Positions 20,183-63,117 of a stretch of DNA of 64,000 nt are shown here, piece after piece. Origin of the DNA: Pseudoalteromonas ruthenica (lineage in GTDB: Bacteria > Pseudomonadota > Gammaproteobacteria > Enterobacterales > Alteromonadaceae); NCBI RefSeq assembly GCF_008808095.1, contig NZ_CP023397.1:372001-436000 (forward strand). Reading direction: 5' to 3'. Under the pieces are notes generated by a model, which was given only the letters and a program-made list of their open reading frames with translations, was not told where the DNA came from and ran no database searches. Within the stretch, counting starts at the first letter, position 1; each line of letters starts with the position of its first letter. Both the position numbers and the translations under genes were made by a program.

Positions 20183-22624
20183 ATGAAAAAACGCTTTATT
20201 GCCAGTGTGTTGGGCTTAGCTTGTACGCTAAGCCTCAACATTCATGCAGCCCCTTCACAGGCTGCGGCACAATCGGGCTATCAAATGCCCTCGCCAGAGC
20301 TGGCGCAAGTCGTAGAAGCGAAACTTGCACCCCGGTCGATGTTATCTCCTGATGGCCAATATGTGGCCTTACTTGAGCGTCGTCGAGTTGAAAGCTTGCA
20401 AGCATTGGCTAAACCGGAGCTCAAGCTCGCTGGTATTAAACTAAATCCAAAGAACTTCTCTCGCTCTCGCGTACGTAATAAATACACGGCGTTAAGCTTT
20501 AAGGCAGTGGATGGCAGCAAGAGTATCGAAGTCGACGGTTTAGGTGAGGGTATTATGCGCTCACCGCAATGGTCCAGTGATAGTCGCTACCTTAGTTTTG
20601 TGTGGGAAACTCCAGATAGCGCCACATTGTGGTTTTATGATATTGAAAACCAGGCACTGCAGCAGCTTTCAGATTTAGCCCTGAACTCAGTGGTGGCAGC
20701 TAAGCCCTATCAGTGGCTACCCGATGCCAGCGGGGTGATTATCAACCATGCTATCAATGCCGATAAACAAGCCCCTGAAGATGATGCCAGTACCGTGGTG
20801 CCGGTGATCCAGCAAACCACAGGGGAAAAAGCACCGGCCCGTACCTATCAAAACTTGCTCACCAGCCCTCATGACGAAGCGTTATTCAAGTTTTACGGGC
20901 AAGGGCAGCTGTATCGCGTTAGCCTCGATGGCAAGGCGACAAAAGTAGGTAAACCCGCGTTATTTCGTCGCTTTAGTGTTTCACCCGATAGCACCAATCT
21001 CTTGATTGGCGCATTGAATGAGCCGTTTTCTTATCAGGTGCCTTATTATCGCTTCGCCGCGACTTGGTCTGTCTGGGGCATGAGTGGCTATGAGCGTAAA
21101 CAGCTGGCGCAACAGCCACTGGCGGATAATATTCCCCAGGGCTTTGACAGTGTGCGCACCGGCCCTCGTGACTTTGAATGGCGTGCTGATAAAGGGGCAA
21201 CGGTGATCTGGGCTGAGGCTCAAGATGGCGGCGATATGAAAACCGATGTGCCGCACCATGATTACGTTTATAGCTTGAGTGCACCGTTTAAGCGTAAACC
21301 TAAGCTGTTTACTAAAGTAGAGCGTCGTTTCGCTGGTATTACTTGGGGTAACGATACGGTGGCAACCCTCAGTGAATGGCGCTTTAGCGATCGCATGTTA
21401 CGTACTTGGGTTATTCAACCTGACGATGCATCCAGCTCACCGGTGCTTTTCTCAGAGCGCAGCTATAACGACGCCTACAAAGACCCCGGTAATCCGATTT
21501 ACACCACCAACGACCTCGGCGCTCGAGTAATGAAAGTCATCGGCGACCGCTATGTGTTTTTACGCGGTAATGGTGCTTCAGAAAAGGGCAATATTCCGTT
21601 TCTAGACCGCTATGATGTAAAAACCAACAGCACCCAGCGGTTGTGGCAAAGTGAAGCGCCTTATTATGAGCGCGTGGTGGGGATGCTTGATGATGAAGGG
21701 CGCCGTTTTATCACCGTGCGTGAGTCAAAAACCGAGCAGCCTAATTTATTTATTCGTGATTTAGACAATAATGCGTTAACTCAGCTGACCGAGTTCCCGC
21801 ACCCGTACCCGGCATTTAAAGGGGTGCAAAAAGAGCAACTGCGTTATCAGCGCGATGACGGTGTTCAGCTCTCGGGTACTCTGTATCTACCTCCAGGTTA
21901 TGACCCTTCACAGGGCAGCATTCCGGTACTGATGTGGGCCTATCCACTTGAGTATAAAGATAAAGGCGTGGCTTCTCAGGTGCGGGAGTCGCCCTATGAA
22001 TTCACCTATATCGGCTATTGGGGCCCAATGCCGTATCTCGCTAAAGGTATTGCCGTGTTTGATGACCCGAAAATGCCCATTGTCGGCGTGGATGGCAAAG
22101 AGCCTAACGACACCTTCCGTAAACAGTTAGTAGCCAGCGCCCAAGCAGCGGTGGATGTACTGGTAGAAAAAGGCGTCGCCGATAAAGACAACATCGCTAT
22201 CGCCGGGCACTCTTATGGCGCCTTTATGGTGGCTAACTTGCTTGCCCATAGCGACTTGTTCAAAGCAGGAATTGCCCGCAGTGGCGCTTATAACCGCACC
22301 CTAACGCCATTCGGCTTCCAAGGTGAAGAGCGTAACTTCTGGGAAGGGCAAGACGTGTACGCCAACATGTCGCCATTTTTCCATGTCGATAAGATTAACG
22401 AACCGATGTTGATGATCCATGGCAAGGAAGATCCCAACAGCGGTACCTTCCCCATGCAAAGTGAACGTATGTATGCGGCGATGAAGGGCCTAGGTAAGGA
22501 TGCTCGTTTGGTAATGCTGCCTTACGAGGCCCACGGCTACCGTGCCCGTAAGAGCCTGCTTCATGTTTTATGGGAGCAAGAGCAGTGGCTAGATAAGTAT
22601 CTGCTCAATACCCCTAGCGAATAA
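20183..22624 (+). CDS. Secreted S9-family peptidase (prolyl oligopeptidase-type)
   Basis: 813 aa. The signal peptide is cut near HAA (about 23-25). Residues about 30-560 are a WD/TolB-like propeller (SPDGQYVALLERR, SPQWSSDSRYLSF), and about 560-810 an alpha/beta-hydrolase domain. The catalytic triad is readable: Ser677 in GHSYGAF, Asp750 in HGKEDPNSG and His784 in EAHGY. S9 enzymes of this plan cleave short peptides in the periplasm, often after Pro or acidic residues. It lies directly upstream of the POT peptide transporter, so it probably feeds it. It has no copy of the GntR operator found before the transporter, and ends in its own terminator. Confidence 0.92.
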   Translation: MKKRFIASVLGLACTLSLNIHAAPSQAAAQSGYQMPSPELAQVVEAKLAPRSMLSPDGQYVALLERRRVESLQALAKPELKLAGIKLNPKNFSRSRVRNKYTALSFKAVDGSKSIEVDGLGEGIMRSPQWSSDSRYLSFVWETPDSATLWFYDIENQALQQLSDLALNSVVAAKPYQWLPDASGVIINHAINADKQAPEDDASTVVPVIQQTTGEKAPARTYQNLLTSPHDEALFKFYGQGQLYRVSLDGKATKVGKPALFRRFSVSPDSTNLLIGALNEPFSYQVPYYRFAATWSVWGMSGYERKQLAQQPLADNIPQGFDSVRTGPRDFEWRADKGATVIWAEAQDGGDMKTDVPHHDYVYSLSAPFKRKPKLFTKVERRFAGITWGNDTVATLSEWRFSDRMLRTWVIQPDDASSSPVLFSERSYNDAYKDPGNPIYTTNDLGARVMKVIGDRYVFLRGNGASEKGNIPFLDRYDVKTNSTQRLWQSEAPYYERVVGMLDDEGRRFITVRESKTEQPNLFIRDLDNNALTQLTEFPHPYPAFKGVQKEQLRYQRDDGVQLSGTLYLPPGYDPSQGSIPVLMWAYPLEYKDKGVASQVRESPYEFTYIGYWGPMPYLAKGIAVFDDPKMPIVGVDGKEPNDTFRKQLVASAQAAVDVLVEKGVADKDNIAIAGHSYGAFMVANLLAHSDLFKAGIARSGAYNRTLTPFGFQGEERNFWEGQDVYANMSPFFHVDKINEPMLMIHGKEDPNSGTFPMQSERMYAAMKGLGKDARLVMLPYEAHGYRARKSLLHVLWEQEQWLDKYLLNTPSE

Positions 22625-22639
22625 CTGAAACCATGCTAA

Positions 22640-22667
22640 AAGCCCGAGTTTATCTCGGGTTTTTTTA
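22640..22667 (+). terminator. Rho-independent terminator after the S9 peptidase
   Basis: CCCGAG / CTCGGG stem with loop TTTAT and a following run of seven T, 16 bp past the stop codon. It separates the peptidase from the transporter promoter. Confidence 0.9.
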
Positions 22668-22771
22668 TGCCTGTAAGCGTCAGTAAGACGGTGTGTTAGT
22701 CGCTGGATATTTGCTTCGCTGGTCAGAGGCGCTGGTTGTGGTTGAGAAGCACACTATAAGTATGATATGTA

Positions 22772-22785
22772 TATTGTATACAATA
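22772..22785. promoter_or_regulatory. GntR/FCD operator copy 1 (before POT transporter)
   Basis: Perfect 14-bp palindrome TATTGTATACAATA, 16 bp before the transporter ATG at 22802. The centre GT-AT-AC fits the GT-N(0-3)-AC core of FadR-subfamily GntR operators. The same sequence stands before the hydroxyproline operons, the TonB receptor and the collagenase. Its place between promoter and start codon fits repression. Confidence 0.82.
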
Positions 22786-22801
22786 ATAAAAAGACATCAT
22801 T

Positions 22802-24532
22802 ATGACCACTTCGCTGCAAGCTCAACAACCCGCAACCAAACACTGGCGCTTCGGTGCTCGATTCTACATTGCTAACTTAATGGAGGTATTTGAACGCCTC
22901 GCTTGGTATGGCTTTTTCGCTGTTTCATCGGTGTATATGACTACACCACAAAGTCATGGAGGGGTCGGTTTTAGCGATAGTCAACGCGGTGCTATTCAAG
23001 GCATTATTCCCTTCTTTTTGTATTTATTGCCGGTGTTAACAGGGGCCTTGGGCGATCGAGTGGGCTATCGCAAGATGTTTATTGTGTCATTTATGCTGAT
23101 GGCGCCAGGGTATTACCTGTTAGGGGAGGCGCGTAGCTTTTGGCCGTTTTTTGCTGCGCTGTCGTTGGTGGCATTGGGGGCGGCCTGTTTTAAGCCTGTG
23201 GTGGTTGGTACCATTTCCCACAGCACCAATGATCATAACCGGGGCGTGGGCTTTGGCGTTTTTTATACCATGGTTAATATTGGCGGTTTTATAGGCCCTA
23301 TGGTTGCTGGAGCGATGCGAGCGATTAGCTGGGATGCGGTTTTTCTTATGTCGGCAGCATGGATAGTGCTGAACTTTATTCCGGTGTTGTTGTTTTATCG
23401 TGATCCGCCTGCTTTGCGTCAACAACACGCCTCACTCAGTTTGATATTGAAGCAGGCGCAGCAGGTCCTGGGCAATGCCCGGTTTGCTCTGCTCATTGCC
23501 CTGAGTGTAATCGTGCTGATGAGCGCCGGTGTACAATGGCTCAGCTATGGCAGTGCATTTCTCTTGATTGCTCTGTGGGTTGGGGCCAATTTGCTCTGGG
23601 ATAGGCTACCCGTGGCAACAATGAGCGCCAAGACTTGGTGGCGACAACCTATCCGTATTAGTAACCCGCGTTTTGCCTTGTACTTGTTGATTCTGACGGG
23701 ATTTTGGACCGTCTATAACCAGCTTTTTTATACCTTGCCTTTGTATATTCGCGACTACGTTGATACCGGCGATGTGCTGGCGCTACTGGCAGTATTTGGT
23801 GACTCGGCGGTGAACTTTTTTGCCCATGTCGATCAAGATGCCTTAGCACAAGCCGTTAATGCATTGTTTTTGCAGCTGCAACAAGGCCCAAGCAACATCG
23901 ATTTAGAGGCGTTACGGTTGCAGTGGGTGCATTACAAAGTCAATGTTCCCAACGCAGAGCTGGCGGTGCTGGTGGAGCGCTTGTCACTGTTGGCTCAGCA
24001 ACAAGCGCAGCTCAGTACGGTGCAACTTACGGTCATGGTCGATGCGCTTTCGGCATATCGGCAAGTCAATCCAGAGTACCTTATTAATTTAGATTTTGCC
24101 GCCATCGTGTTGCTGCAAATCGCGGTAAGCGCACTGTGTCAGCGCTTTAAAACATTTTATGTATTAAGCGCAGGATTAGTGGTGATGGCTATGGCGTTTT
24201 GCTACCTCATAACGATGGATATGCATGCCAGTGGTTGGGCTGTGGTTTGCGTTATTTTGCTTATCGCCTTGGCAGAGATGCTCACTTCACCAAAAAGCCA
24301 AGAATACGTAGCCAGCATTGCCCCAAAGCAGCAAGCGGCGCTCTACATGGGTTACTATTTTGTTTCCATGGCTCTGGGCTTTTTGTTTGCCGGGTTTTTA
24401 TCTGGGTGGAGTTACTCGCAGCTTACCTTAGCGCTCGGGCGTCCAGAACTAATGTGGGGGCTGTTTGCCGGGATAGCTGCGCTCACGGCAGTCGCACTTA
24501 TTTGCTTTCATAGCTCGGCAAAGCAGCAATAA
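22802..24532 (+). CDS. POT/PTR2-type peptide transporter (MFS) with large internal insertion
   Basis: 576 aa. The first half has the proton-coupled oligopeptide transporter marks: ExxFERLAWYG in TM1 (EVFERLAWYGFF), GALGDRVGYRK between TM2 and TM3, and FYTMVNIGGFIGP in TM5. About 105 hydrophilic, Gln/Leu-rich residues (roughly 320-430) are inserted between two membrane blocks, where standard bacterial POTs have a short loop. A second helix block follows, with LTSPKSQEYVASIAPKQQAALYMGYYF. It imports di- or tripeptides with protons, plausibly Pro/Hyp-containing ones given its operator. Start ATG 22802 has no strong ribosome box. Confidence 0.88.
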   Translation: MTTSLQAQQPATKHWRFGARFYIANLMEVFERLAWYGFFAVSSVYMTTPQSHGGVGFSDSQRGAIQGIIPFFLYLLPVLTGALGDRVGYRKMFIVSFMLMAPGYYLLGEARSFWPFFAALSLVALGAACFKPVVVGTISHSTNDHNRGVGFGVFYTMVNIGGFIGPMVAGAMRAISWDAVFLMSAAWIVLNFIPVLLFYRDPPALRQQHASLSLILKQAQQVLGNARFALLIALSVIVLMSAGVQWLSYGSAFLLIALWVGANLLWDRLPVATMSAKTWWRQPIRISNPRFALYLLILTGFWTVYNQLFYTLPLYIRDYVDTGDVLALLAVFGDSAVNFFAHVDQDALAQAVNALFLQLQQGPSNIDLEALRLQWVHYKVNVPNAELAVLVERLSLLAQQQAQLSTVQLTVMVDALSAYRQVNPEYLINLDFAAIVLLQIAVSALCQRFKTFYVLSAGLVVMAMAFCYLITMDMHASGWAVVCVILLIALAEMLTSPKSQEYVASIAPKQQAALYMGYYFVSMALGFLFAGFLSGWSYSQLTLALGRPELMWGLFAGIAALTAVALICFHSSAKQQ

Positions 24533-25474: not shown

Positions 25475-25500
25475 GATAGACCCTCGTCTTTTTGTTAGGT

Positions 25501-27151: not shown

Positions 27152-28360
27152 TTACAACCCAAATGGGTTATCAATGCTGTGTGCCGGCTCAGTAAACCAC
27201 TTTGGCCCCTCAGCCGTGGTGTAAAAGTGATCTTCTAAGTGGATACCAAATTCGCCGGGAACCACCAGCATTGGCTCATTAGAAAAACACATATGTTCTG
27301 CTAACACCTGAGGGTTATCTTTGACTAAATAAGGCCATTCGTGGATATCTAAACCAATGCCGTGCCCTGTGCGGTGGGGGCAACCAGGTAATTGGTAGTC
27401 TGGCCCCAGACTTTGGGCGCTGAGATAATCGCGCGCGGCTTTATCTACATCGCCACAGGTGTTGCCTACTTGGGCGGCAGCAAACGCTTTTAACTGGGCG
27501 TTTTTCTCATACTGCCAAAACTGTTGTTGTCGAGCGCTTGCCTCACCAAACACATAGGTGCGAGTGATATCGCTGAGATAACCGTGTAATTGGCAACCGG
27601 TATCAATTAGCACCATATCCCCTTGTTTCAGTGTTTGTGGGTCTTTCACTCCGTGGGGGAAGCTGGTGGCTTGGCCAAAGAGCACAATGCAAAAGTAGTT
27701 GCCGCTGGCACCGACTTGTTTATGCGCTGCATTAATAAATGCCTCGACCTCAGTTGTGGTGATCCCCTCATGTAACATCGACGCCGTGGCTTTGTGCACT
27801 TCTAAGGTCATGTCCATTGCCCGCTGAATAAGGGCAAGCTCGTGAGTGGATTTGTGCATGCGACAATGGGCTGTGACTTCGCCAGCATTGACCAGCGTTA
27901 ATTGTGGCGCCGCTTTAGTAATACCATCGGCGATGAAAAATTGCGCGCTTTCGTCAATGCCCAGCACCGCATCGTCGCCACAACCCATGCCTTTTAGCAC
28001 CTCGGCAATCAATGCATAAGGGTTTTGCTCTTCTTGCCAACCATGAATATCGGCATCAATCACCTGGTAATCTCGCAACGAGCCTATTTCAAAAAAAGGC
28101 GCGACGAAGGCCAGCTCGCCTTGGGCAGGCAGTAACGCGCCCACCAAGCGCTCACTGGCATACCACTTTAGTCCCGTGAAATAGGTCATGTTAGTACCAG
28201 CATTTAAATAAAGGGCATCAATGCCATTTTCCTGCATAAAAGCCTGGGCTTTGGCGATGCGTTGGCGATATTCGTGCTCTTCAATGGCGCTGATATCGCC
28301 GGTCATATCGCTCAGTTGTGCTAAGGCTTGTTGTTGGTTTTGATAGCCAATGCCTTTCAT
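27152..28360 (-). CDS. M24-family Xaa-Pro peptidase (aminopeptidase P/prolidase-like)
   Basis: 402 aa pita-bread metallopeptidase without signal peptide, so cytoplasmic. An N-terminal creatinase-like domain (about 30-165) precedes the catalytic domain, whose five metal ligands are all present: Asp253 (LIDTG), Asp264 (SDITRT), His333 (TGHGIGLD), Glu362 (SNEPML) and Glu376 (HLEDHF). It removes residues before Pro, and probably Hyp. It is coupled (4-base overlap) behind the D-amino-acid dehydrogenase, so it is made together with the enzyme that burns the released D-Hyp. Controlled by the operator at 29765 in the divergent promoter. Confidence 0.93.
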   Translation of the reverse strand: MKGIGYQNQQQALAQLSDMTGDISAIEEHEYRQRIAKAQAFMQENGIDALYLNAGTNMTYFTGLKWYASERLVGALLPAQGELAFVAPFFEIGSLRDYQVIDADIHGWQEEQNPYALIAEVLKGMGCGDDAVLGIDESAQFFIADGITKAAPQLTLVNAGEVTAHCRMHKSTHELALIQRAMDMTLEVHKATASMLHEGITTTEVEAFINAAHKQVGASGNYFCIVLFGQATSFPHGVKDPQTLKQGDMVLIDTGCQLHGYLSDITRTYVFGEASARQQQFWQYEKNAQLKAFAAAQVGNTCGDVDKAARDYLSAQSLGPDYQLPGCPHRTGHGIGLDIHEWPYLVKDNPQVLAEHMCFSNEPMLVVPGEFGIHLEDHFYTTAEGPKWFTEPAHSIDNPFGL

Positions 28361-29640
28361 AACGCTTTGCTCCTGTTACCTTGAAACCGCGCGATGCTCA
28401 AGGCATCGATATTCATCGCGGTGGGTTGTTGATTTATGAGTGCAGCAATCAACTCACTGGTGATGGCTGCTTGGGTTAACCCCAAATGTTGATGGCCCAG
28501 TGCCAGCAATAGACTTGGATGCCTGGGAGCTGCGCCAATGACCGGTAATGAATCTGGCAAAGAGGGTCGCGCCCCTTGCCAACAGGCCTGCTCGTCAAAC
28601 TCAGTGCCTAGTTGCGGCAGCAACTCCCGCGCATGAGCCAATAGAGCGTGAGCGCGCGCCATATTTGCAGGCGCTTGCAAACCGGCAAATTCAACCGTGC
28701 CGGCCAGTCGCAGGCCTGCACTCATGGGCGTCATAATAAACTGTCGCTCAAAGCTGGCCACCGGGCGTTTGAGCCCGAGGTGTTCGGATAACTGATAATG
28801 ATAGCCGCGCTCCGCCTCTAGCGGCAGGGCATAGCCTAATTGCTGACACAGTACTTTACTCCATGCGCCGGTACAAACAACCGTTTTGCGATAAAGCTCG
28901 CGGCTGGTTGCGGTACTCACCCGACAATGTGAATGCGCACAGGTCAAGGAAGTGACTTTCTCGGCGCGGTAGTGCCCGCCTAAAGCACAAAACTGGCTGA
29001 ATAAGTATTGGCTTAATGCGCCAGGGTCGGTGCTGTGGCCCACGGCTTTAAAATAAAGCGCGCCGTCGATATGGGCAGTTAAAGCGGGCTCTAGCTCATT
29101 GACCTGAGCACGCTTGAGTATCGATACGTCCACGCCTTGGTGCGAGTACTGCGCAGCCACGGCTTTTATTTTATTTGTTGTCGTGCTCTCGAAGGTTAAC
29201 AGCGAACCCTGGTGTTGTACGTACTGGTGGTAATCATTTGCGAGTAAGCGCTGCCACGCGCCAAGGGCATGGCTGTTTAAGGTGCTCAAGACTTCAGTGT
29301 GGCGACGATAACGATGCGGCATCATATTGGCCCCAAAGCGAGCAAGCCATGGTAGTAGCTGGGGTAGGTATGTGGGCGCAATACGCAGGGCAGAGCGCTG
29401 GCTGAGCAGCATTTTAGGCAGCTTAGGGAGTAATGAAGAGCAGGCCATGGGGAACACTTGTTCGGTGGCAAAGTGGCCGGCATTGCCAAAAGAGCATTGG
29501 CTGCCCGGCGGCTCAGGGTCATACAAGGTGACTTGATAGCCTTGGCGCTGCAATTGATACGCACAGCTCAAGCCAATAACGCCGGCACCGAGCACCGCAA
29601 CGCGGTTGTTAGCAGCATGATGTTGAGCCTGACTTTGCAT
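28357..29640 (-). CDS. FAD-dependent D-amino-acid dehydrogenase, probable D-hydroxyproline dehydrogenase
   Basis: 427 aa DAO-family flavoprotein, DadA-like. The FAD Rossmann motif VAVLGAGVIGLSCAYQLQ is at 14-31, then YDPEPPGSQCSFGNAGH. VVCTGAWS and the C-terminal GHQHLGLTQAAIT segment complete the fold. In the known bacterial pathway, cis-4-hydroxy-D-proline made by the epimerase is oxidised to pyrroline-4-hydroxy-2-carboxylate by such an enzyme, passing electrons to the respiratory chain. It faces the deaminase-epimerase operon across a shared operator. D-Hyp as substrate is inferred from these neighbours. Confidence 0.87.
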   Translation of the reverse strand: MQSQAQHHAANNRVAVLGAGVIGLSCAYQLQRQGYQVTLYDPEPPGSQCSFGNAGHFATEQVFPMACSSLLPKLPKMLLSQRSALRIAPTYLPQLLPWLARFGANMMPHRYRRHTEVLSTLNSHALGAWQRLLANDYHQYVQHQGSLLTFESTTTNKIKAVAAQYSHQGVDVSILKRAQVNELEPALTAHIDGALYFKAVGHSTDPGALSQYLFSQFCALGGHYRAEKVTSLTCAHSHCRVSTATSRELYRKTVVCTGAWSKVLCQQLGYALPLEAERGYHYQLSEHLGLKRPVASFERQFIMTPMSAGLRLAGTVEFAGLQAPANMARAHALLAHARELLPQLGTEFDEQACWQGARPSLPDSLPVIGAAPRHPSLLLALGHQHLGLTQAAITSELIAALINQQPTAMNIDALSIARFQGNRSKAL

Positions 29641-29764: not shown

Positions 29765-29780
29765 ATATTGTATACAATAT
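29765..29780. promoter_or_regulatory. GntR/FCD operator copy 2 (hydroxyproline divergon)
   Basis: Perfect 16-bp palindrome ATATTGTATACAATAT in the 179-bp gap between the divergent dehydrogenase and deaminase genes, 40 bp before ATG 29820. It can control both operons at once. TACAAT within it could also serve as a -10 box. Confidence 0.85.
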
Positions 29781-29819: not shown

Positions 29820-30734
29820 ATGAACGTAAATTGGAAGGGTGTTTATCCGGCAGTCACCACGCAATTCTATGATGACGACAGCATCAACTTTAAAGCCACC
29901 GCAGCGATGATTGATAACCTTATTAATGAGGGGGTGCATGGCATTATTGTGCTTGGCACCGTCGGTGAGAACTGCTCGCTGCGCAGTGAAGAAAAGCGCC
30001 AAGTGTTGGAAATGGCAAAAGAGGTGGTTGGTACACGTGTGCCGCTATTAACCGGGGTGGCTGAAACAACCACGCAATTTGCCATTGAATTTGTCGCCGA
30101 TGCGCAAGCTGCAGGAGTGGATGGGTTAATGGTATTGCCGGGCATGGTGTACCGCAGCACTGAGCGCGAGGCCATTGATCACTATCAGCGCATTGCTAGG
30201 TCGACCCAGTTACCTATTATGATTTACAACAACCCGGTGACCTATGGCGTCGATGTGTCTATTGCCGGCATGCACACCTTAGCGCTTGAGCCAAACATCG
30301 TCTCGGTAAAAGAGGCGACTGAAGATACACGCCGTATCACCGAGCTGCTTAGTGCGTTTGGTGAGCGTTTTGTGGTGTTTGGTGGTGTTGATGACATCGC
30401 TCTTGAGTCCTTGATGCTCGGCGCCACGGGTTGGATATCGGGGCTTACCAATGTCTTTCCCCGTGAGCCTGTGGCCATTTACCAATTGGCTCAGCAGGGG
30501 CGTTATGAGGAGGTGCGGGAGCTTTGGCAATGGTTCTTGCCACTGCTGCGTCTAGATACTATTCCCACCTTAGTGCAATGCATTAAATACGCTGAACAAC
30601 TGGCTGGACGAGGCAGTGAGCGCACGCGCGCACCGCGCTTGCCGCTAACCACAGAACAAAAAGCTGAAGTGGAGCGCCTCTATAACACGGCCATTGCCAA
30701 TCGTATCGACTTAAGCAAGTACAACCTGGACTAG
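29820..30734 (+). CDS. DHDPS-family pyrroline-4-hydroxy-2-carboxylate deaminase (candidate)
   Basis: 304 aa from ATG 29820 (GAGGAAC box); a longer in-frame start would place the operator inside the gene. TIM-barrel aldolase of the DapA/NanA family: GTVGEN (46-51), Tyr136 in MIYNNPVTYG and Schiff-base Lys164 in IVSVKEATEDT. In hydroxyproline users the DapA-like gene beside the epimerase deaminates and dehydrates the pyrroline to 2-oxoglutarate semialdehyde. Its place here, followed at 3 bp by the epimerase and then the semialdehyde dehydrogenase, supports that role. Confidence 0.88.
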   Translation: MNVNWKGVYPAVTTQFYDDDSINFKATAAMIDNLINEGVHGIIVLGTVGENCSLRSEEKRQVLEMAKEVVGTRVPLLTGVAETTTQFAIEFVADAQAAGVDGLMVLPGMVYRSTEREAIDHYQRIARSTQLPIMIYNNPVTYGVDVSIAGMHTLALEPNIVSVKEATEDTRRITELLSAFGERFVVFGGVDDIALESLMLGATGWISGLTNVFPREPVAIYQLAQQGRYEEVRELWQWFLPLLRLDTIPTLVQCIKYAEQLAGRGSERTRAPRLPLTTEQKAEVERLYNTAIANRIDLSKYNLD

Positions 30735-30737
30735 TCT

Positions 30738-31739
30738 ATGAACCGGGGGACCTTTTTCTGTATTGACGGCCATACCTGTGGTAACCCGGTGCGCTTGGTA
30801 ACAAGCGCCCACCCACCGCTGCGCGGCCAGAGTATGAGTGCGAAACGACAACACTTCTTGCAGCATTACGACTGGATCCGTCAAGCGCTGATGTTCGAGC
30901 CGCGCGGGCATGACATGATGTCCGGGGCTTTTTTGTATCCGCCGACCACAGCAGATGGCGATGCCGGGATTTTATTTATTGAAACTTCGGGCTGCTTACC
31001 TATGTGCGGCCACGGCACCATAGGCGCCCTGACATTTGCATTGGAAAATGGCCTGCTGACACCACAAGACCCACATCGGGTGCGCTTAGATACGCCGGCC
31101 GGGCGCGTAGATGCTCATGTGCGTCGTAGTGGCGACAAGGTCGAAGCAATCAAGCTTTATAACGTGCCTGCCTTTTTGGCCTTTGAGCAACTTACTATTG
31201 AGGTGCCTGAGCTGGGGGCGCTAAGCGTGGATATTAGCTTTGGCGGCAACTTTTACATCATTGTTGAGCCGCAAGCTAATTTTGCAGGCATAGAGCATTG
31301 CAATGCTTCGTTTTTACTGCGCTACAGCCCGTTGATCCGCGATATTGTCAACGCCCAAGTCGAGTGCATCCACCCGCAAGACCCCACCATGCGCGGGGCA
31401 TCCCACGTGCTGTGGACCGGACAGCCCAAACACACCAGCTCCGATGCCGCTAATGCAGTGTTTTATGGCGACAAGGCCATAGATCGTTCGCCCTGTGGCA
31501 CCGGGACCAGCGCGCGCATGGCACAGTTATATGCGCAGGGGCGCTTGCCTATCGGGCAAGCCTTTGTTCATGAAAGCTACATCGGCAGCCAATTTATTGG
31601 CTGCATCGAGGCGGTGACCGAAATCGCAGGGCGCACCGCCATTGTTCCTAGTATCGAGGGCTGGGCCCGCGTCACCGGTCACAACTGCATTGTGGTTGAC
31701 GATGACGACCCCTACGCCTTCGGCTTTCAAGTGTTATAA
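30738..31739 (+). CDS. 4-hydroxyproline 2-epimerase (proline racemase family)
   Basis: 333 aa. Both catalytic cysteines are present: Cys90 in LPMCGHGTIGA and Cys253 in SPCGTGTSARMA. This separates it from trans-3-hydroxyproline dehydratases, which carry Thr at the second site. It turns trans-4-hydroxy-L-proline, released from collagen, into cis-4-hydroxy-D-proline in the cytoplasm. It starts 3 bp after the deaminase stop and ends 10 bp before the dehydrogenase start. Proline racemase itself is the less likely alternative because of the neighbours. Confidence 0.93.
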   Translation: MNRGTFFCIDGHTCGNPVRLVTSAHPPLRGQSMSAKRQHFLQHYDWIRQALMFEPRGHDMMSGAFLYPPTTADGDAGILFIETSGCLPMCGHGTIGALTFALENGLLTPQDPHRVRLDTPAGRVDAHVRRSGDKVEAIKLYNVPAFLAFEQLTIEVPELGALSVDISFGGNFYIIVEPQANFAGIEHCNASFLLRYSPLIRDIVNAQVECIHPQDPTMRGASHVLWTGQPKHTSSDAANAVFYGDKAIDRSPCGTGTSARMAQLYAQGRLPIGQAFVHESYIGSQFIGCIEAVTEIAGRTAIVPSIEGWARVTGHNCIVVDDDDPYAFGFQVL

Positions 31740-31749
31740 GGAGACCAAG

Positions 31750-33246
31750 ATGGAGAACTACACAGCAAGCCTGAGTGGCCTTAGCTTTATCGCTGGCCAG
31801 TGGCAAAGTGAGCAACAGCAGGCATTTCATGCCTTTTGCCCGGCGCGCAATGAGGACATGGCCACACCCTTTTACAATGCCTCTTTGCAGGATGTAGAGA
31901 GTGCTTGTGCGAGCGCTGAGCGCGCTTTTATCGCCTATCGGGGCACCTCGTATCAGCAGCGCAGTGAGTTTTTGCACGCTATTGCCGATGAAATTGAAGC
32001 GCTCGGCGATGAGTTACTCAATACCACTCATCTAGAAACCAATTTGCCCTTGGCCCGGTTACAAGGTGAGCGTGGGCGGACGATGAATCAACTACGCGCA
32101 TTTGCTGATGCCTTAGAAGACAATTTGGCGCCTTTGCACTTGCACTATCACGATGCTGGCGAGCCAAATCGCACCCCGTTGCCTAAGCCTGACACCACCT
32201 TGCGTTTTTTACCCCTGGGGCCAGTGGCGGTTTTTGGCGCCTCTAACTTTCCTTATGCATTTTCAACTCTCGGGGGAGACACCGCAGCGGCGTTAGCCGC
32301 CGGCTGCCCGGTGATAGTCAAAAGTCACCCAGCACACCCGGGAACCAGCGAGTTGATGACCCGAGCCATTGCTAAAGCAATAAGCCGCTGTCAGATGCCT
32401 GAGGGAACCTTTGCCATGTTACAGGGTACCGACCATAGTATTGCTCACCAACTCGTCAGTGCTAAGCAAATTAAGGCGGTGGGTTTCACTGGCTCTTTAA
32501 CCGTGGCCAAGGCGTTAATGAGTACCATACATAGCCGTGAAGAGGTGATCCCTTTCTATGGTGAGCTTGGCGCTATCAATCCACAGATTATTTTACCCCA
32601 GGCGCTGGCAAGTGCGCGTACTTTAGGGCAACAGCTGTGTGCTTCATTGCTGATGGGTCATGGCCAGTTCTGTACCAGCCCAGGGCTATGGTTAGTGCCA
32701 ACACACGGCAGCGATGAGCTTATTGCGGCAGTACGCGAGCACATAGGCGATGCGCCATCGGATACCCTGCTTAGCCCAAGTATTATTGACGCCTATGAGC
32801 GTGATACCAAAGCGTTAGCCCAATGCAACGGTGTACAATTGTTGGCACAAGGGCATAAAAGTGCGCCATTCCACGCGCAAGCACAGGTGTTTACTTGCAG
32901 CGCTGAGGGTTTTATCAATACGCCGATGCTGCATCAAGAGGTGTTCGGTCCGGCAGCTCTTGTTGTTCGTTACGATGATGAGCAGCAGCTTATGCATGTT
33001 ATTGATGCCTTAGAAGGACAGCTAACCGCTTCAATCTACGGTGAACAAGCCCAGCATCAGCCGCTTATTGAACGGTTAAGTTATAAGGTAGGGCGATTGA
33101 TTTATGGGCAAATGCCTACCGGTGTAGAGGTGTGCCAATCAATGAATCATGGCGGCCCATACCCGGCTGCCACCGATGTGCGTTCGACCTCGGTTGGGTT
33201 AGAGGCGATGCGGCGGTTCTTGCGGCCACTGTGTGTGCAGCGCTGA
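31750..33246 (+). CDS. 2-oxoglutarate semialdehyde dehydrogenase
   Basis: 498 aa aldehyde dehydrogenase from ATG 31750 (AAGGAG box at 31739; a longer in-frame start overlaps the epimerase gene). LGPVAVFGASNFPYAFSTLGGDTAAALAAGCPVIVKSH (156-193) is typical of the ketoglutarate-semialdehyde subfamily. Glu272 and Cys308 (GHGQFCTSPG) are the catalytic pair. It oxidises the deaminase product to 2-oxoglutarate, delivering hydroxyproline carbon to the TCA cycle. Last gene of the operon, followed by a strong terminator. Confidence 0.93.
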   Translation: MENYTASLSGLSFIAGQWQSEQQQAFHAFCPARNEDMATPFYNASLQDVESACASAERAFIAYRGTSYQQRSEFLHAIADEIEALGDELLNTTHLETNLPLARLQGERGRTMNQLRAFADALEDNLAPLHLHYHDAGEPNRTPLPKPDTTLRFLPLGPVAVFGASNFPYAFSTLGGDTAAALAAGCPVIVKSHPAHPGTSELMTRAIAKAISRCQMPEGTFAMLQGTDHSIAHQLVSAKQIKAVGFTGSLTVAKALMSTIHSREEVIPFYGELGAINPQIILPQALASARTLGQQLCASLLMGHGQFCTSPGLWLVPTHGSDELIAAVREHIGDAPSDTLLSPSIIDAYERDTKALAQCNGVQLLAQGHKSAPFHAQAQVFTCSAEGFINTPMLHQEVFGPAALVVRYDDEQQLMHVIDALEGQLTASIYGEQAQHQPLIERLSYKVGRLIYGQMPTGVEVCQSMNHGGPYPAATDVRSTSVGLEAMRRFLRPLCVQR

Positions 33247-33277: not shown

Positions 33278-33314
33278 AATGCGGCCAACACTCCCTCTGT
33301 TGTCCGCATTTTTC
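33278..33314 (+). terminator. Rho-independent terminator of the hydroxyproline operon
   Basis: AATGCGGCCAACA pairs with TGTTGTCCGCATT (13 bp, one mismatch), loop CTCCCTC, then TTTCT. It lies 32 bp past the semialdehyde dehydrogenase stop. Confidence 0.88.
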
Positions 33315-33403: not shown

Positions 33404-34069
33404 ATGGCAATTGAGCATAAAACCCGTACCCAACTAGTTGCTGAAGCAATTCGCGAAAAAATCTTACTTGGCGAGCTAAAATCAGGTGCGCCACTGCGCC
33501 AAGCGGCGTTGGCACAAGAGCTCAATGTTAGCCGTATTCCCGTGAGAGAGGCTCTACTGCAGCTTGAATCTGAAGGGTTAGTGAACTTTGAGGCCCACAA
33601 AGGAGCAACGGTAACCGAGGTGAGTGCATCTCAGGTGGATGAAATTTTTGACTTACGGGCACTGTTAGAAGCCGAGCTACTGCGTCATTCTCTAACTAAG
33701 CTCACCGATGCTGATTTCAGCGAAGCCGAGGTGCTATTGCAAGATTTAGAAGCGGCGATGGCAGCAGGGGATACGCAAGCCGCAACTGGGCACCTTAACA
33801 GCGCATTTCATGCCAAATTATATAGCCGTGCGCAGCGCCCGCAAACCCGTGAATTAGTTGAGCAATTTAGCAAAAATTCAGAGCGTTACGTGCGCATGCA
33901 TATTCTTCTTGCCGGGGGGTTAGATACCGCACCGGAAGAGCATCGTGAGTTACTTAAACTGTGCCGCGCGCAACGCGTAGACGATGCCTGTGCGTTTTTA
34001 TATCGCCACATCAGTGGCGCTAAAGACGATATTAAAGAGCTGTTATTAACCATGGAAGCGCAGGATTAA
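33404..34069 (+). CDS. GntR/FCD-family regulator, probable regulator of hydroxyproline/collagen regulon
   Basis: 221 aa from ATG 33404; an in-frame GTG at 33362 would sit inside the palindrome. The winged helix covers about 5-72 (VAEAIREKILLGELKSGAPLRQAALAQELNVSRIPVREALLQLESEGLVNF), with the FCD all-helical sensor after it. Three of its metal-site His are visible (AFHAKLY, EEHREL, LYRHIS), so it likely binds a metal-held carboxylate such as a Hyp-pathway acid. It lies next to the catabolic operon, and the FadR-type core GT-AT-AC is found in four promoters of related genes, so it is the best candidate to bind them. Confidence 0.88.
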   Translation: MAIEHKTRTQLVAEAIREKILLGELKSGAPLRQAALAQELNVSRIPVREALLQLESEGLVNFEAHKGATVTEVSASQVDEIFDLRALLEAELLRHSLTKLTDADFSEAEVLLQDLEAAMAAGDTQAATGHLNSAFHAKLYSRAQRPQTRELVEQFSKNSERYVRMHILLAGGLDTAPEEHRELLKLCRAQRVDDACAFLYRHISGAKDDIKELLLTMEAQD

Positions 34070-43815: not shown

Positions 43816-44085
43816 ATGAAAAAATCACGCTATACAGAATCTCAGATCATCGCAGTATTAAAAGAAGTCGATGCGGGTAGGAAGGTTGAGGAAGTGTGCC
43901 GTCAGCACGGTATCAGTAGTGCAACCTATTACAACTGGAAGTCCAAATACGGTGGGATGGAAGCCTCTGACGTCAAACGGTTGAAGGAGCTTGAAGAGGA
44001 AAATGCCAAGCTTAAAAAGATGTTTGCAGATGTTAGTTTGGAAAATCATGCGATTAAGGAGCTTTTCGCAAAAAAGGGTTGGTGA
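43816..44085 (+). CDS. IS3-family transposase OrfA
   Basis: 89 aa from ATG 43816. HTH region KKSRYTESQIIAVLKEVDAGRKVEEVCRQHGISSATYYNWKSKYGG, followed by a leucine-zipper-like helix (LKELEEENAKLKKMFADVSLENHAIKEL). It binds the IS ends. The A-AAA-AAG run at 44070-44076 near its end is a -1 slippery site to make the OrfAB fusion. Confidence 0.95.
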   Translation: MKKSRYTESQIIAVLKEVDAGRKVEEVCRQHGISSATYYNWKSKYGGMEASDVKRLKELEEENAKLKKMFADVSLENHAIKELFAKKGW

Positions 44086-54401: not shown

Positions 54402-54417
54402 ATATTGTATACAATAT
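54402..54417. promoter_or_regulatory. GntR/FCD operator copy 3 (before TonB receptor)
   Basis: Perfect 16-bp palindrome ATATTGTATACAATAT, identical to the site at 29765, 64 bp before the receptor ATG. A TTGTGT at 54389 could be a -35 box, placing the site over the -10. Confidence 0.85.
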
Positions 54418-54480: not shown

Positions 54481-57400
54481 ATGGCAACAGCATCAAAGCG
54501 CCGCTCCCGCAAGGGCATGCAGGCATCGTTAAATCGTCTTTTTCAAGTTAGTACCTTGGCCCTTGCAGTAGCCAGCGCTACGCCGGCAATGGCGGTGGAT
54601 GGCAGCAGTATCGTTAAAGGCACCATAGTCAGCAGCGCCGGTGAAGATATTACCCGTGCCACCATCACTTTAGTGCATATCAGCAAGGGGTTAACTTATG
54701 AAGTCCGCACCGACGCCGATGGCGAGTACATTTTGCGGAACGTGCCGGTGGGCACTTACAACGTCACCGTAAGCAAAGAGGGTTATCAAAACGTCATTGA
54801 GCAAGGTGTGAAAGTAAGCATTGGTCAATCCATCATCTTAGACGCGCAAATGCTACAGGCCGGTGCGCAGCCCATGGAGCGCATTGCTGTTACCGGTGCT
54901 GCCATTCGCCGTGTCGATTTAGGTTCATCGACTTCTGGGTTAACTTTCTCTGATGAGGAAATCAAGGTTATGCCCGTGCAAAGTGGTTTTGAAAGTATCG
55001 CTTTACTGGCACCGGGCACCGCCGCTGCTGGTGGCAGCAGTTTTAATGGCGCTTCTAGCTTTGGCGGCGCATCTTCTGCGGAAAATGGCTATTACTTTAA
55101 TGGTTTGAATGTAACCAGCATTCGCACTGGGCTTGGCTCTATTCGCCTGCCTTGGGAAGCTATTTCGCAAACCCAGGTCAAAACTGGGGGGATCAACCCT
55201 GAATTTGGCGGCGCAATGGGGGTATTGTCAATGCAGTGTCTAAATCCGGTGATAATGACTTTAGCGCTGGCGCCGAGGTGCGCTGGGAGGGGGATAGCCT
55301 GCGCTCCCAGCATGACTCAATTTACCAAAGTAATGGCACCATCAGCACCAATACTCAGCGCAGTGCCTACGACTTCAGTGAGCTGCAAGTATGGGCCAGT
55401 GGCGCCCTGATTGAGGACACCTTATTTGCCTATGCTTTGTTTAATCCGCGCCGCGAAAGCTCAGAGGGCGCAGGGCAAACAACCTTTAGTGATTTCTCCC
55501 GCGATGAAGACCGCTGGTTCAGCAAGTTAGATTGGTTTATTAACGAAGACCACGCCGTTGGCTTATCGGCGATGAACAACAAACGCGAATGGGAAACGGA
55601 CACCTACGGCTACAACTGGCAGCAAGACCGCATTGGCGATCAGCAGGGAGTGACGGCACCCGGGGAGGACGGCGGCAACATGTATAGCCTGTCGTACAAT
55701 GGCTACCTCAGTGATTATTTTTCTGTGTCGGCGGTAGCCGGGCGCGTTACCGAGAATGTTGAAAATGTGGTTGCTTCAACGAACCCGGGAGTTTGGGACG
55801 AACGCGATGGGTTTATTACGCTTTCGGAGCACACCAATGCCAATGTCTCGGCAGAGGAATATACCCGAGACCAACTGCGGCTAGATTTTAACTGGGACTT
55901 AGCCGCCCATGCGCTGCAGTTTGGCGTTGATTACACTAAGGTCGAGGTGGATTACTTCTCCGGACAAAATGGCGAAGGTGATGCCATGGGCTGGTGGACC
56001 ATTGCCACCGCCGCAGACAATGATATTTCCGGTGCCGCCGCTGGTGAAGATTACATTGAGCGACGAGTACGCACCCGGGCCGTTGATTCCGATACCAGTG
56101 CGTTGGCGTTTTACATTAACGACTCATGGCAGGTCAGCGAGCAGCTGGTGCTGAATTTGGGCTTGCGCTATAGCCAATTTGAAAACACCGTCAGTGACGG
56201 GCGCGCCTATGTTGATATTGACAACCAGATAGCGCCGCGCCTGCAAGCCATATATGACTTATGGGGCGATGGCAGTGCCAAGGTCTATGCCACGTATGGG
56301 CGTTATTTTCAGCCCGTGTCGGCGAATATGAACATTACCCAAGGTTCGGCATCGGTGGAATGGTTTGAATACTTTGAGCTCGACGAGCTCAATGGCTCGG
56401 GCGAACCTATCTTACTTGCGGATGGCTCCCCTAGTCGGGGCGCGATGCTACGCGACAGACGCTGGCGTCAACGCGGGATCACTGAGCCGGGGCTGATTGC
56501 ATCCAGTAATCTTAAACCTATGTATTCCGATGAGTGGACTGTTGGCTACCAACAAGAAGTGTTCAGCGACATGACCTTTGGAGCACGTGCCATTTATCGC
56601 AAGCTTGGGCGTAGTGTCGAGGACACAGATGTAGGGCCGGTGCTGGCGAAAAAGCTGGCTGAATTAGGCATTGCCGATAATGTCGGTCAAGGCTCCTATT
56701 ATGTGCTCAATAACCCCGGCGAGAGTGTGCAAATGAGCTATGACTTCGACGGGGATGGACAAGTTGATGAAGTGACCTTAAGTGCCCAAGAGCTGGCATT
56801 GCCAAAGGCTGAGCGCAAATACCTGGCTTTTGAGTTCACTTTAGATGGCGCCATCACCGAGCAGCTGCGCATTGACGCTTCTTACACCTGGTCGCACAGC
56901 TGGGGCAACACCGAAGGCTTGGTGAAAACCGACAACGATCAAGCCGACCCCGGTTGGACAACCTCTTATGACTATGGCGATTTAATGGACCATGGTTATG
57001 GCAACCTGCCGAATGACCACCGTCACGCAGTTAAGCTCTCGGGAACGTATGATATTACCGACAATTTAACCTTTGGCCTGGTTGCCCGTGGCACCTCAGG
57101 TCGCCCGAAAAGCTATTTCAGTGTACACCCCGAGGGCGTTGATAGCTGTGCTCCTGGCAACCCCTGGGATGCGTGTATCAGCCGCTACTACGATCATGCC
57201 TCGCATTATGATGAAAACGGTGAGCCAGCACCGCGTGGCAGCAAAGGCAACTTACCTTGGAGTACACAAATAGATATGTCGTTAAGCTACTACGGCGAGC
57301 TATTTGGTCAAGAGCTGATGCTTAAGGGCACCGTGTATAACGTGCTGAACGATGATACCGCCATCGCCATTAACGAAGAGCGCACGCAATATGGTGCCAA

Positions 57401-57488
57401 TGGCCTCGAGCTGAACCCAGATTATGGCATGACAACCTGGCGTCCAGCGGCGCGTTACGCCTCATTGGTGGCGCGTATTCGTTTTTAA
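54481..57488 (+). pseudogene. TonB-dependent receptor (Oar-like, CarboxypepD_reg N-domain) with one-base frameshift
   Basis: Two frames give one receptor of about 1000 aa. The first (54481 on) has a long signal peptide ending TPAMAVD, a carboxypeptidase-regulatory-like domain (SSIVKGTIVSSAGEDITRATITLVH to VPVGTYNVTVSKEGYQNV) and the start of the plug, up to GGINPEFGGAMG. The second picks up at SKSGDNDFSAGAEVRW and forms the barrel to the final aromatic strand (LVARIRF). The five-G run at 55218-55222 needs a sixth G to give GAMGGIVNAVSKSG, the usual plug motif. It would import peptides such as collagen fragments, judged from its operator and the M24 and OCD genes behind it. Confidence 0.87.
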
Positions 57489-57517: not shown

Positions 57518-57546
57518 GCCGGGCACCTTAGGTGCTCGGCATTTTT
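57518..57546 (+). terminator. Rho-independent terminator after TonB receptor
   Basis: GCCGGGCACC / GGTGCTCGGC stem (10 bp, one G-T), 3-base loop, then ATTTTTC. It lies 29 bp past the stop and may reduce read-through into the M24 gene. Confidence 0.88.
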
Positions 57547-57615
57547 CGTTAACGACTAAGGTGCGATATGTGCGCCTTAGCGGCAATCACTATAGAGGAA
57601 CTAGAGCGAGGAATT

Positions 57616-58722
57616 ATGGCGATAACATTTGATTTTCAGCGCCGTATGGCGCGCTTAAGAGCACAGCTTGAGAGTCATCAAGTACAGGCATTTATCATTC
57701 ACAGCGGTGAAAACATTGCTTATCTCTGCGGGTTTAGTGGACATGGCGCCACTTTAGTTGTCAGCGCCGAGCAAGCGTTACTGATCACCGATTACCGTTA
57801 CTACTTGCGTGCGCTAGAGGAAACCTCAGGGATGGAGGTTATCCAGCGCGATCGCGACCGCGAAAGCCTTGGGCAATGTTTGGCCCGGGTGTGCGCCAAG
57901 CACAGCGTTCTGGGCTTTGAAGCAGAGCATTTTAGTGTTGGTCAATGGCAGCATATCGCCGAACATTTGCGCGCTAATACCTGTGTTGCCACAGTGCAGG
58001 TGGTCGAAAGGTTACGCCGTGTTAAAGATAGCCAAGAGGTTGCCTGTATTCGTGGCGCTGCTGAGATTGCCGATGCGGCCTTAGCCGATACGCTCACTTT
58101 GCTTGAGAGCGGCATAACTGAGCGAGAATTGGCAATAGAGCTTGATTATCAAATGCAACGACGTGGCTCGCAAGGGGTGTCTTTTGACACTATTTTACTG
58201 TTCGCCGAGCGTACGGCCTTGCCCCATGGTGAGCCGGGAGCAAAGCGCTTATGCGAGGGCGATTTAATATTGATTGATTTTGGCGCTGTGCGCAGCGGCT
58301 ATCGCTCAGATATGACCCGCACCTATGTGTGGGGCGAGCCCACTAGCGAGCAGCAAACCTTGTTTGACACCGTTGCCAAGGCACAACAAGCAGCGCTGCA
58401 ACAGGTCTGCGCAGGCATTTGTTGCCATGAGTTAAACCACGCCGCTCAGCAAGTGTTGGCCTCGAGCCCGTATCATCGTTATGCCGGCGAAGGGTTGGGG
58501 CACGGTGTTGGCCTAACCCTTCATGAGTTGCCTTTTATTAAAGCCAATGCCCCCTATCAACTAGAAAGTGGCAACGTCATCACTATTGAGCCCGGTATTT
58601 ACATTCCCAACTATGGCGGTGTGCGTTTAGAAGAAGACATTGTCGTTACCGAGACAGGCTATCAGCGCCTGACTCAGGCCCCTCAACAATTCGCGCTAAG
58701 GAGTGAACATGGAGATTATTAA
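57616..58722 (+). CDS. M24-family Xaa-Pro peptidase (PepP/PepQ-like), second copy
   Basis: 368 aa from ATG 57616 (GCGAGGA box; an in-frame start at 57568 lacks one). Cytoplasmic. An N-terminal creatinase-like domain (about 8-130) precedes the catalytic domain with all five metal ligands: Asp221 (LIDFGAV), Asp232 (SDMTRT), His296 (GLGHGVGL), Glu325 (TIEPGIY) and Glu339 (RLEEDI). It cuts Xaa-Pro or Xaa-Hyp bonds of imported peptides. Only about 30% like the copy at 27152 by eye, so not a recent duplicate. Overlaps the next gene by 14 bases. Confidence 0.93.
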   Translation: MAITFDFQRRMARLRAQLESHQVQAFIIHSGENIAYLCGFSGHGATLVVSAEQALLITDYRYYLRALEETSGMEVIQRDRDRESLGQCLARVCAKHSVLGFEAEHFSVGQWQHIAEHLRANTCVATVQVVERLRRVKDSQEVACIRGAAEIADAALADTLTLLESGITERELAIELDYQMQRRGSQGVSFDTILLFAERTALPHGEPGAKRLCEGDLILIDFGAVRSGYRSDMTRTYVWGEPTSEQQTLFDTVAKAQQAALQQVCAGICCHELNHAAQQVLASSPYHRYAGEGLGHGVGLTLHELPFIKANAPYQLESGNVITIEPGIYIPNYGGVRLEEDIVVTETGYQRLTQAPQQFALRSEHGDY

Positions 58723-59656
58723 TCAACAGCAAGTACAGCAAGTGATGGCCTATGCGCCATTGTTAAAAGCGCTACAACAAGGCTTTGCTGGTCAAGCCAC
58801 TATGCCCAGACGCAATGTCTACCCGCTCAGCCCCGAGAGCGATAACCATGATGCGTTCGCGGTGCTGCCGGCATGGAATGATCAAGTCATCGGGGTTAAA
58901 GCTTTTACTTATTTCCCAGATAATGAGCACCATGGCAAATCCAGTTTGTATTCCAAGGTGATGTTATTTTCGCGCCAGCATGGCGAGCCGCGAGCGCTGG
59001 TGGATGGCACCGAAATCACCTTGTGGCGAACCTCAGCAGTGTCGGCATTAGCGGCCAGTTATTTGGCTGCCCAACAAGCGAAAAAGCTGGTGGTATTTGG
59101 TTCGGGTAAGCTTGCTCCGTGTATGATCCGCGCGCACCTGAGCGTGCGAGATTATCAACAAGTCAGTCTGGTTGCCCGCAACACCGCCAAAGCCGAAGCC
59201 ATCCTCGCGCAACTGCGCCAAGAGTTTGCTCATTGTCAATTTGAGCATACTTCAGCCAGTGAAGCGCTTATTGCCAGTGCCGATACCATCTGCTGTGCTA
59301 CCGGCAGTCATGCACCGCTGTTTCGTGGTCAATGGCTAACGCCAGGGACTCATATCGACTTAATAGGCAATCATCATCGCGATGCTCGTGAGTGCGATAG
59401 CGAAACGATAAAACGTAGTCGCGTGTACGTGGATAGCCGCGATAACGTCCTCAATGAAGCCGGGGAGCTATTAATCCCCATCAGTGAGGGGGTATTCTCA
59501 CCCGAGCAAATACAAGGTCAACTCAGTGATTTGGCCAGCATCAATCGTCCGGCGCGCCAAGGTGATAATGATATTACCTTATTTAAATCCGTGGGGACTG
59601 CGCTCAGTGACCTCATTGCGGCCAATTATGTGTACCAGCAACTCAGCGACCGCTAA
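58709..59656 (+). CDS. Ornithine cyclodeaminase/mu-crystallin family reductase (ketimine or Pyr2C reductase candidate)
   Basis: 315 aa from ATG 58709, six bases after AAGGAG; a GTG two codons earlier is less likely. NAD-binding Rossmann part KKLVVFGSGKLAPCMIRAHLSVRDY (about 127-150), preceded by DGTEITLWRTSAVSALAASYLA, the substrate-pocket segment. The GxGxxA motif is altered to GSGKLA. Members include ornithine cyclodeaminase, L-alanine dehydrogenase and pyrroline-2-carboxylate reductase. In a Pro/Hyp setting the last is most likely: it would make L-Pro from the ketimine left by Pro or Hyp oxidation. Overlaps the M24 gene, so they are co-translated. Confidence 0.83.
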   Translation: MEIINQQQVQQVMAYAPLLKALQQGFAGQATMPRRNVYPLSPESDNHDAFAVLPAWNDQVIGVKAFTYFPDNEHHGKSSLYSKVMLFSRQHGEPRALVDGTEITLWRTSAVSALAASYLAAQQAKKLVVFGSGKLAPCMIRAHLSVRDYQQVSLVARNTAKAEAILAQLRQEFAHCQFEHTSASEALIASADTICCATGSHAPLFRGQWLTPGTHIDLIGNHHRDARECDSETIKRSRVYVDSRDNVLNEAGELLIPISEGVFSPEQIQGQLSDLASINRPARQGDNDITLFKSVGTALSDLIAANYVYQQLSDR

Positions 59657-62992: not shown

Positions 62993-63023
62993 ACTGAATC
63001 AGTTTTTATTATTTAGCTAGACC

Positions 63024-63051
63024 ATACACTTAGTGTATATTGTATACAATA
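63024..63051. promoter_or_regulatory. GntR/FCD operator copy 4 plus overlapping palindrome (collagenase promoter)
   Basis: TATTGTATACAATA at 63038-63051 is identical to the site before the POT transporter. Directly adjoining it is ATACACTTAGTGTAT (63024-63038), a 15-bp palindrome that could be a half-strength or second-regulator site. Both lie in the 125-bp divergent gap between the collagenase and gpx. Confidence 0.83.
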
Positions 63052-63081
63052 AATAAAACTTGAAAGCATTTATATTGCGAT

Positions 63082-63107
63082 CAATTATATTGTGCACAAT
63101 ATAATTG
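63082..63107. promoter_or_regulatory. Perfect 26-bp palindrome, probable OhrR operator
   Basis: CAATTATATTGTG followed by its exact complement CACAATATAATTG, 10 bp before the gpx ATG. AT-rich TTGT/ACAA repeats are the usual form of OhrR sites, and an ohrR-like gene is second in this operon, so autoregulation is likely. Confidence 0.75.
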
Positions 63108-63117
63108 CGAGGTATTT

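Follow-up and report, generated by a model that had tools for sequence, protein, structure and literature searches.

A predicted HypR regulon for the utilization of collagen and hydroxyproline in Pseudoalteromonas ruthenica

We analyzed a 64,000-nucleotide stretch of the genome of Pseudoalteromonas ruthenica (contig NZ_CP023397.1, positions 372,001 to 436,000; "the window") and found genes for the use of collagen and 4-hydroxyproline (Hyp) that very probably form a single regulon. Specifically, a GntR-family regulator with an FCD domain, which is encoded at 33404 and which we will call HypR, is predicted to control five transcripts by binding the palindrome TATTGTATACAATA at their promoters. 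The sites, the families of the genes behind them, the rarity of the motif in the genome, its co-occurrence with the regulator, and its conservation were all observed directly.

The 14-mer TATTGTATACAATA has four exact copies in the window, at 22772, 29766, 54403, and 63038, which is where an initial annotation of this DNA had reported them. With up to two mismatches, there are 5 matches in the window compared to 0.29 expected, and 0 of 100 shuffled sequences reached 5. The initial annotation proposed a genome-wide search; this found no exact copy elsewhere in 4.12 Mb, so the window's four copies are the only ones in the genome (4,117,705 bases in two contigs). The copies at 29765 and 54402 do lengthen to 16-bp perfect palindromes, as it had claimed. 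Its statement that every site lies within 65 bp of a start codon or in a divergent promoter also held up: counting from the sequence gives 16–64 bp. The distances are 16 bp for the POT transporter (22802), 40 bp for the DHDPS-family deaminase (29820), 64 bp for the TonB-dependent receptor (54481), and 45 bp for the M9 collagenase (62992, minus strand). Operator 2 is also 125 bp from the start of the D-amino-acid dehydrogenase gene, on the side opposite the deaminase, and operator 4 is also 66 bp from the start of a glutathione peroxidase (GPx) gene (63118). We scored sites with a weight matrix made from 59 distinct 20-mers at the loci of 80 relatives of HypR. The four sites score 25.9–28.5; the runner-up in the window scores 12.5 (at 63088), followed by 5.5. 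In the rest of the genome, we rejected the one-mismatch places at C1:1122513 and C2:254952 as operators because they lie inside coding open reading frames (ORFs), and the two-mismatch places that were scored by the matrix (L008–L015) were all below 9.

The motif is found in genomes that have the regulator. Among 36 genomes from the genus, including this one, 22 have homologues of the GntR/FCD regulator (E ≤ 1e-20), and these same 22 have the Hyp epimerase. The 14-mer is present in 20 of the 22 genomes with HypR and in 0 of the 14 without it; the reversed motif is present in none. The 12-mer core ATTGTATACAAT is present in 22/22 and 1/14, respectively. (The Fisher exact p-values, 3e-8 for the 14-mer and 6e-9 for the 12-mer, are overstated because the genomes are related.) This co-occurrence agrees with the initial annotation's assignment of the motif to the protein at 33404.

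The sites are also conserved around HypR's relatives. We considered the best 80 loci of 408 relatives, which are mostly from Alteromonadales (judging by titles). Among the matches listed, the protein from Pseudoalteromonas sp. T1lg75 shares 87% identity with the regulator in the window, those from most other Pseudoalteromonas share 74–78%, and those at L159, L166, and L177 share 57%. A protein from Shewanella corallii that is encoded in a hyp locus bearing a site shares 55%. In the 80 loci, 53 sites are exact, 42 have one mismatch, and 35 have two; the corresponding counts with the motif reversed are 0, 0, and 12. Sites scoring at least 13 are found in 70 of the 80 loci, versus 1 of 80 when reversed (this is partly circular, as the matrix was trained on these loci). 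A site lies within 300 bp upstream of the regulator's gene in 15 of the 80.

The genes beside these sites suggest what HypR would control. We found 46 exact sites in related genomes: 45 in 19 genomes of the genus and 1 outside it. The neighbors of 41 of these sites are for Hyp catabolism or encode TonB receptors, M9 collagenases, POT transporters or a lipoprotein, M24 or S9/DPPIV peptidases, or proline-racemase-family proteins. More precisely, 15 sites flank a Hyp operon, 15 flank TonB receptors, 4 flank M9 collagenases, and 4 flank a lipoprotein of about 795 amino acids (one of these is divergent to POT), with one site each for M24, S9/DPPIV, and the proline-racemase family. These neighbors give good support to the initial annotation's view that collagen cutting, uptake, and Hyp catabolism are joined. 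It had also raised the concern that the motif might be scattered through unrelated promoters; 5 of the 46 sites lie beside other genes or no gene.

The upstream regions of M9 collagenases point the same way. M9 was found above the cut-off in 21 of the 22 genus genomes that have HypR and in one that lacks it, G019, for a total of 22 of 36. We compared the upstream regions of 53 of the 54 M9 matches above the cut-off (the 54th shares its frame with L231; 3 matches below the cut-off were left out). Scores of at least 14.9 were found in 40 of the 53 regions, versus 0.09% of 2120 stretches of 650 bp shuffled from these loci and 0/53 for reversed stretches. In G019, there was no match to HypR or to the epimerase, and at −89 of its M9 gene it has TATTGTATGTAATG, a decayed site that scores 4.4. 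HypR-bearing genomes have TATTGTATACAATG before M9, at −89 in G030 and at −88 in G005. The apparent decay of the operator in G019 is suggestive as a natural control for the link between HypR and M9, although it is one genome.

Pfam and NCBIfam searches upheld the gene identities that were proposed in the initial annotation (Table 1). The hypR gene adjoins the hyp genes at 29820–33246, which lie directly upstream of it. These core hyp genes sit behind operator 2 (29765–29780), and the arrangement is alike in relatives.

Table 1. Genes, predicted operators, and a hairpin in the window
Feature	Position	Strand	Evidence
HypR operator 1 (predicted), before POT transporter	22772..22785		exact 14-mer; score 25.9
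POT/MFS di/tripeptide transporter (PdtP-like)	22802..24532	+	PTR2 and MFS_1; subfamily TIGR00924 below cut-off
M24 Xaa-Pro-type peptidase	27152..28360	-	PF00557, 189 bits
FAD D-amino-acid/D-hydroxyproline dehydrogenase (HypO-like; DAO)	28357..29640	-	PF01266, 206 bits
HypR operator 2 (predicted), divergent promoter of dehydrogenase and deaminase	29765..29780		16-bp perfect palindrome; score 28.5
DHDPS-family deaminase (HypD-like), start codon chosen in analysis	29820..30734	+	PF00701, 214.6 bits
4-hydroxyproline 2-epimerase (HypE)	30738..31739	+	NCBIfam PRK13971, 555.5 bits (cut-off 376)
Aldehyde dehydrogenase (HypH-like), start codon chosen in analysis	31744..33246	+	PF00171
Terminator-like hairpin, gap between aldehyde dehydrogenase gene and hypR	33278..33310	+	-14.3 kcal/mol, z -4.7; 1/200 shuffles as good; T run after
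HypR, GntR/FCD regulator	33404..34069	+	PF00392 and PF07729
HypR operator 3 (predicted), before TonB receptor	54402..54417		16-bp palindrome; score 26.4
TonB-dependent receptor gene, frame-broken	54481..57488	+	ORFs 54481-55410 and 55236-57488; Pfam on both
Second M24 peptidase (M24b), membership uncertain	57568..58722	+	PF00557, 211 bits; hairpin 57518-57540 before it
Ornithine cyclodeaminase/mu-crystallin family protein (OCD), membership uncertain	58703..59656	+	PF02423, 165 bits
M9 collagenase, 566 aa	61292..62992	-	PF01752, 251.8 bits (cut-off 26); HEYVH in translation
HypR operator 4 (predicted), before M9 collagenase	63038..63051		exact 14-mer; score 26.9

The regulon's extent differs in some respects from what was first proposed. 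It had been drawn from 20183, where there is a gene for an S9 peptidase. This gene has no site by the matrix (best score −10.1), and a terminator-like hairpin (22638–22664) separates it from the POT gene, so we rejected it as a member. The TonB receptor, which had been grouped with the M24 and OCD genes behind it, does have an operator, but its gene is frame-broken: the two pieces overlap at 55236–55410 and match residues 1–242 and 248–997 of one intact relative. Either the receptor is a pseudogene or a G-rich stretch was sequenced incorrectly. Finally, the M9 collagenase has operator 4, as was claimed, but another M9 collagenase, which is encoded elsewhere in the genome, had been missed. The window lies on the smaller of the genome's two contigs. 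On contig C1, a one-mismatch site (C1:974608, score 21.6) precedes a gene for a collagenase with M9_N, M9, PKD, and PPC domains; the regulon is therefore likely to be distributed over both contigs. This site is 8 bp from the first ATG of this gene or 54 bp from the next ATG, which precedes a signal-like stretch.

We infer that HypR binds TATTGTATACAATA, most likely as a dimeric repressor. The five transcripts under its control would be POT; the dehydrogenase with M24; the deaminase, HypE, and aldehyde dehydrogenase; the TonB receptor (perhaps with M24 and OCD); and the M9 collagenase. The larger M9-PKD-PPC collagenase behind the one-mismatch site on the other contig would be a sixth. Either collagen-derived 4-hydroxy-L-proline or an early intermediate of the pathway would fill the FCD pocket and lift repression. 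There would then be a joint rise in the cutting of collagen, in the uptake and cleavage of peptides, and in the breakdown of Hyp to 2-oxoglutarate. By analogy to Sinorhizobium meliloti, relief of repression by 4-hydroxy-L-proline seems to be the best-supported model. His136, His180, and His202 are invariant in 9 aligned HypR homologues; FCD metal sites with three histidines are described for TM0439 and for HypR of Streptomyces (PMC6608401).

Besides the circularity of scoring the 80 loci with a matrix trained on them, several observations weigh against this proposal. The related genomes are not independent. There is no recognizable site upstream of hypR (best score 0.4), and hypR comes after a terminator-like hairpin, so direct autoregulation is unsupported in this genome. 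Sites scoring at least 13 are missing from 10 of the 80 HypR loci, and 13 of the 53 M9 upstream regions score below 14.9 (including L231, which is cut at the gene start). The 5 exact sites in relatives with other surroundings are beside GH18, GEVED, two ORFs of 279 and 152 amino acids that both lack a confident family, or, in G039, no gene within the limits that we used. G039 is the one of 24 genomes outside the genus with the 14-mer, and it has no match to HypR at E ≤ 1e-20. The reversed 12-mer has 6 copies, in 5 of the 36 genus genomes, which shows that a single 12-mer can arise by chance. (The single 12-mer in G015, which lacks HypR, lies inside a 356-amino-acid ORF of an unrelated kind and scores 13.2; we rejected it as an operator.) GntR homologues in G040, G049, and G059 that are 48–51% identical to HypR have neither adjacent hyp genes nor sites. 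Lastly, we found no promoter-like match overlapping operator 3 (54403) or operator 4 (63038). In the proposal's favor, the sigma-70-like sequence that fits best around 29766 (10 of 12, on the minus strand) does overlap operator 2, though such matches are no commoner than in shuffled sequences.

We also considered that another regulator might bind the palindrome. A LysR-family gene (53431) and a MarR-family ORF (from 63601) are closer than hypR to two of the four sites, and a palindrome with similar half-sites precedes the GPx and MarR genes: 63082–63107 is a 26-bp perfect palindrome, 10 bp before the GPx gene. However, the motif tracks the GntR gene across the genus, as described above, and the GPx element is largely kept in G011, which lacks HypR: a similar, imperfect palindrome lies at the equivalent place (L311; one genome only). 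It thus looks like a separate operator, which probably belongs to GPx/MarR and is likely bound by the MarR-family protein. (For the same reasons, and given its score of 12.5, we rejected the runner-up at 63088, which lies within the 26-bp palindrome, as a fifth HypR site.) Judging from the distribution of the GntR gene and of the GPx element, we consider it very improbable that LysR or MarR, rather than HypR, binds the four sites.

If HypR does bind them, it could be an activator, or act both ways, at some promoters such as those of M9 and the TonB receptor. FadR either activates or represses depending on the position of its site (PMC6608401), and the distance from site to start codon varies: it is 16–64 bp for the sites in the window, and in relatives it can be well above 100 bp. 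We think that activation is unlikely: Hyp regulators elsewhere are described as repressors (in S. meliloti, per PMC5343134, and in S. coelicolor, PMC6608401), and an operator 16 bp before the start codon of POT fits blocking. The M24 and OCD genes behind the TonB receptor are less clear. The hairpin at 57518–57540, which follows the TonB gene and makes their membership uncertain, has 10 pairs and a T-rich tail (−20.5 kcal/mol for the stretch), and might end the transcript. The matrix found no site between TonB and M24 in the window, and the homologue of M24b has its own site in some relatives (L100, L121, L124, and L133). On the other hand, a single hairpin may merely weaken read-through, and both OCD and proline dipeptidases are described as members of the HypR regulon (PMC5343134). 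That these two genes escape HypR control is a serious possibility, if not the one that we favor.

The HypR regulon of Pseudoalteromonas and its relatives may also include a poorly annotated secreted metallopeptidase, and we give this even chances. The candidate is the lipoprotein found beside exact sites, which has an HExxH...E motif and about 700–890 amino acids. Starting from a query of 793 amino acids, we found 101 homologues (scoring only the 7997 candidates that share most words) and aligned 43, with 700–892 amino acids. His180, Glu181, His184, and Glu203, which form the gluzincin-type motif, are invariant in these 43. There are 13 long copies in 13 of the 36 genus genomes, with weak fragments in G017 and G023, and all 15 of these genomes carry HypR. 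All 13 long copies have a HypR-type site upstream, with scores above 21 for 12 of them and 14.6 for the copy in G034. G022 has the lipoprotein and the Hyp pathway and has no match to M9. One example is L134:255-2639 (minus strand); others are at L078, L139, L141, and L142. The family was not found in P. ruthenica's own genome. At E ≤ 0.001, Pfam identified no family for the two members that were scanned singly; laxer thresholds gave only weak matches of the query to M1, DUF1570, and BSP; and sequence searches of PDB led nowhere. The NCBI names shown are "hypothetical protein", and some UniRef labels are "Peptidase M60 domain-containing" or DUF1570, so the guess that it is a peptidase is already in the databases. 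The protein looks like a gluzincin that is used with collagen, and it may be a new enzyme that cleaves collagen or Hyp-containing peptides.

We also noticed some other arrangements. Outside the genus, G050 has a full hyp operon with a one-mismatch site (score 23.4). In G049, the first gene of a hyp operon (L302, 9182–14713) encodes another GntR protein, with 29% identity, and the best HypR-type score there is 5.9; replacement of the regulator is possible. The HypR matches in G017 are in two pieces about 1.7 kb apart (G017:C1:1242329-1244659), and G022 has, beside intact copies, an extra fragment of HypR and a fragment of HypE with stops (G022:C2:304755-306567). Between the two parts of the regulon in the window, there is a transposase-like integrase ORF (rve and HTH_21, 44079–44921) and a gene for a DabA-type inorganic carbon transporter with its Proton_antipo_M partner, adjoining the LysR gene (49360–53333).

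Similar regulons are known. HypR of Proteobacteria was described as a GntR regulator whose regulon has the hyp genes as its core (Leyn et al. 2016, PMC5343134). According to that account, the regulon in Alteromonadales includes collagenases (colA1-3), a TonB receptor, proline (di)peptidases, and the di/tripeptide permease PdtP, as well as ornithine cyclodeaminase in some species. The window likewise has a GntR/FCD regulator and has the hyp core, M9, TonB, M24, and POT behind sites. We judged the kinship of the regulators from domains and gene context, and the likeness of the regulons from their gene content. A literature search for TTGTATACAA gave no bacterial regulon among the titles of the matches listed, and the main text of Leyn et al. 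does not contain the word Pseudoalteromonas. Autoregulation of hypR is usual there (32 of 46), whereas we did not see it in this genome. HypR of Shewanella was predicted to be a GntR-family regulator of hydroxyproline and proline utilization (Rodionov et al. 2011, PMC3223726), and its regulon includes putA (per PMC5343134), while putA in P. ruthenica has no exact or one-mismatch site. HypR of Streptomyces coelicolor is a GntR/FCD repressor of Hyp catabolism and of a putative M9 collagenase, SCO5912 (PMC6608401), but it is from another phylum and its operator, CTNTGC(A/C)ATGTCAC, has no clear palindrome. HypR of S. meliloti is a GntR repressor of the hyp genes with 4-hydroxy-L-proline as the inducer (White 2012, cited in PMC5343134); there, uptake is by the ABC transporter HypMNPQ, and the account in PMC5343134 does not mention a collagenase. 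Collagen is a rich source of carbon and nitrogen in the sea, and our results suggest that one Hyp-linked switch would join extracellular collagenase, uptake, and catabolism. The operator could also be used as a tag for unannotated genes for collagen use, such as the HExxH lipoprotein. The gene classes of the window's regulon are all covered by the HypR regulon as Leyn et al. describe it, so this locus is a new and well-supported example of that regulon, not new in kind.

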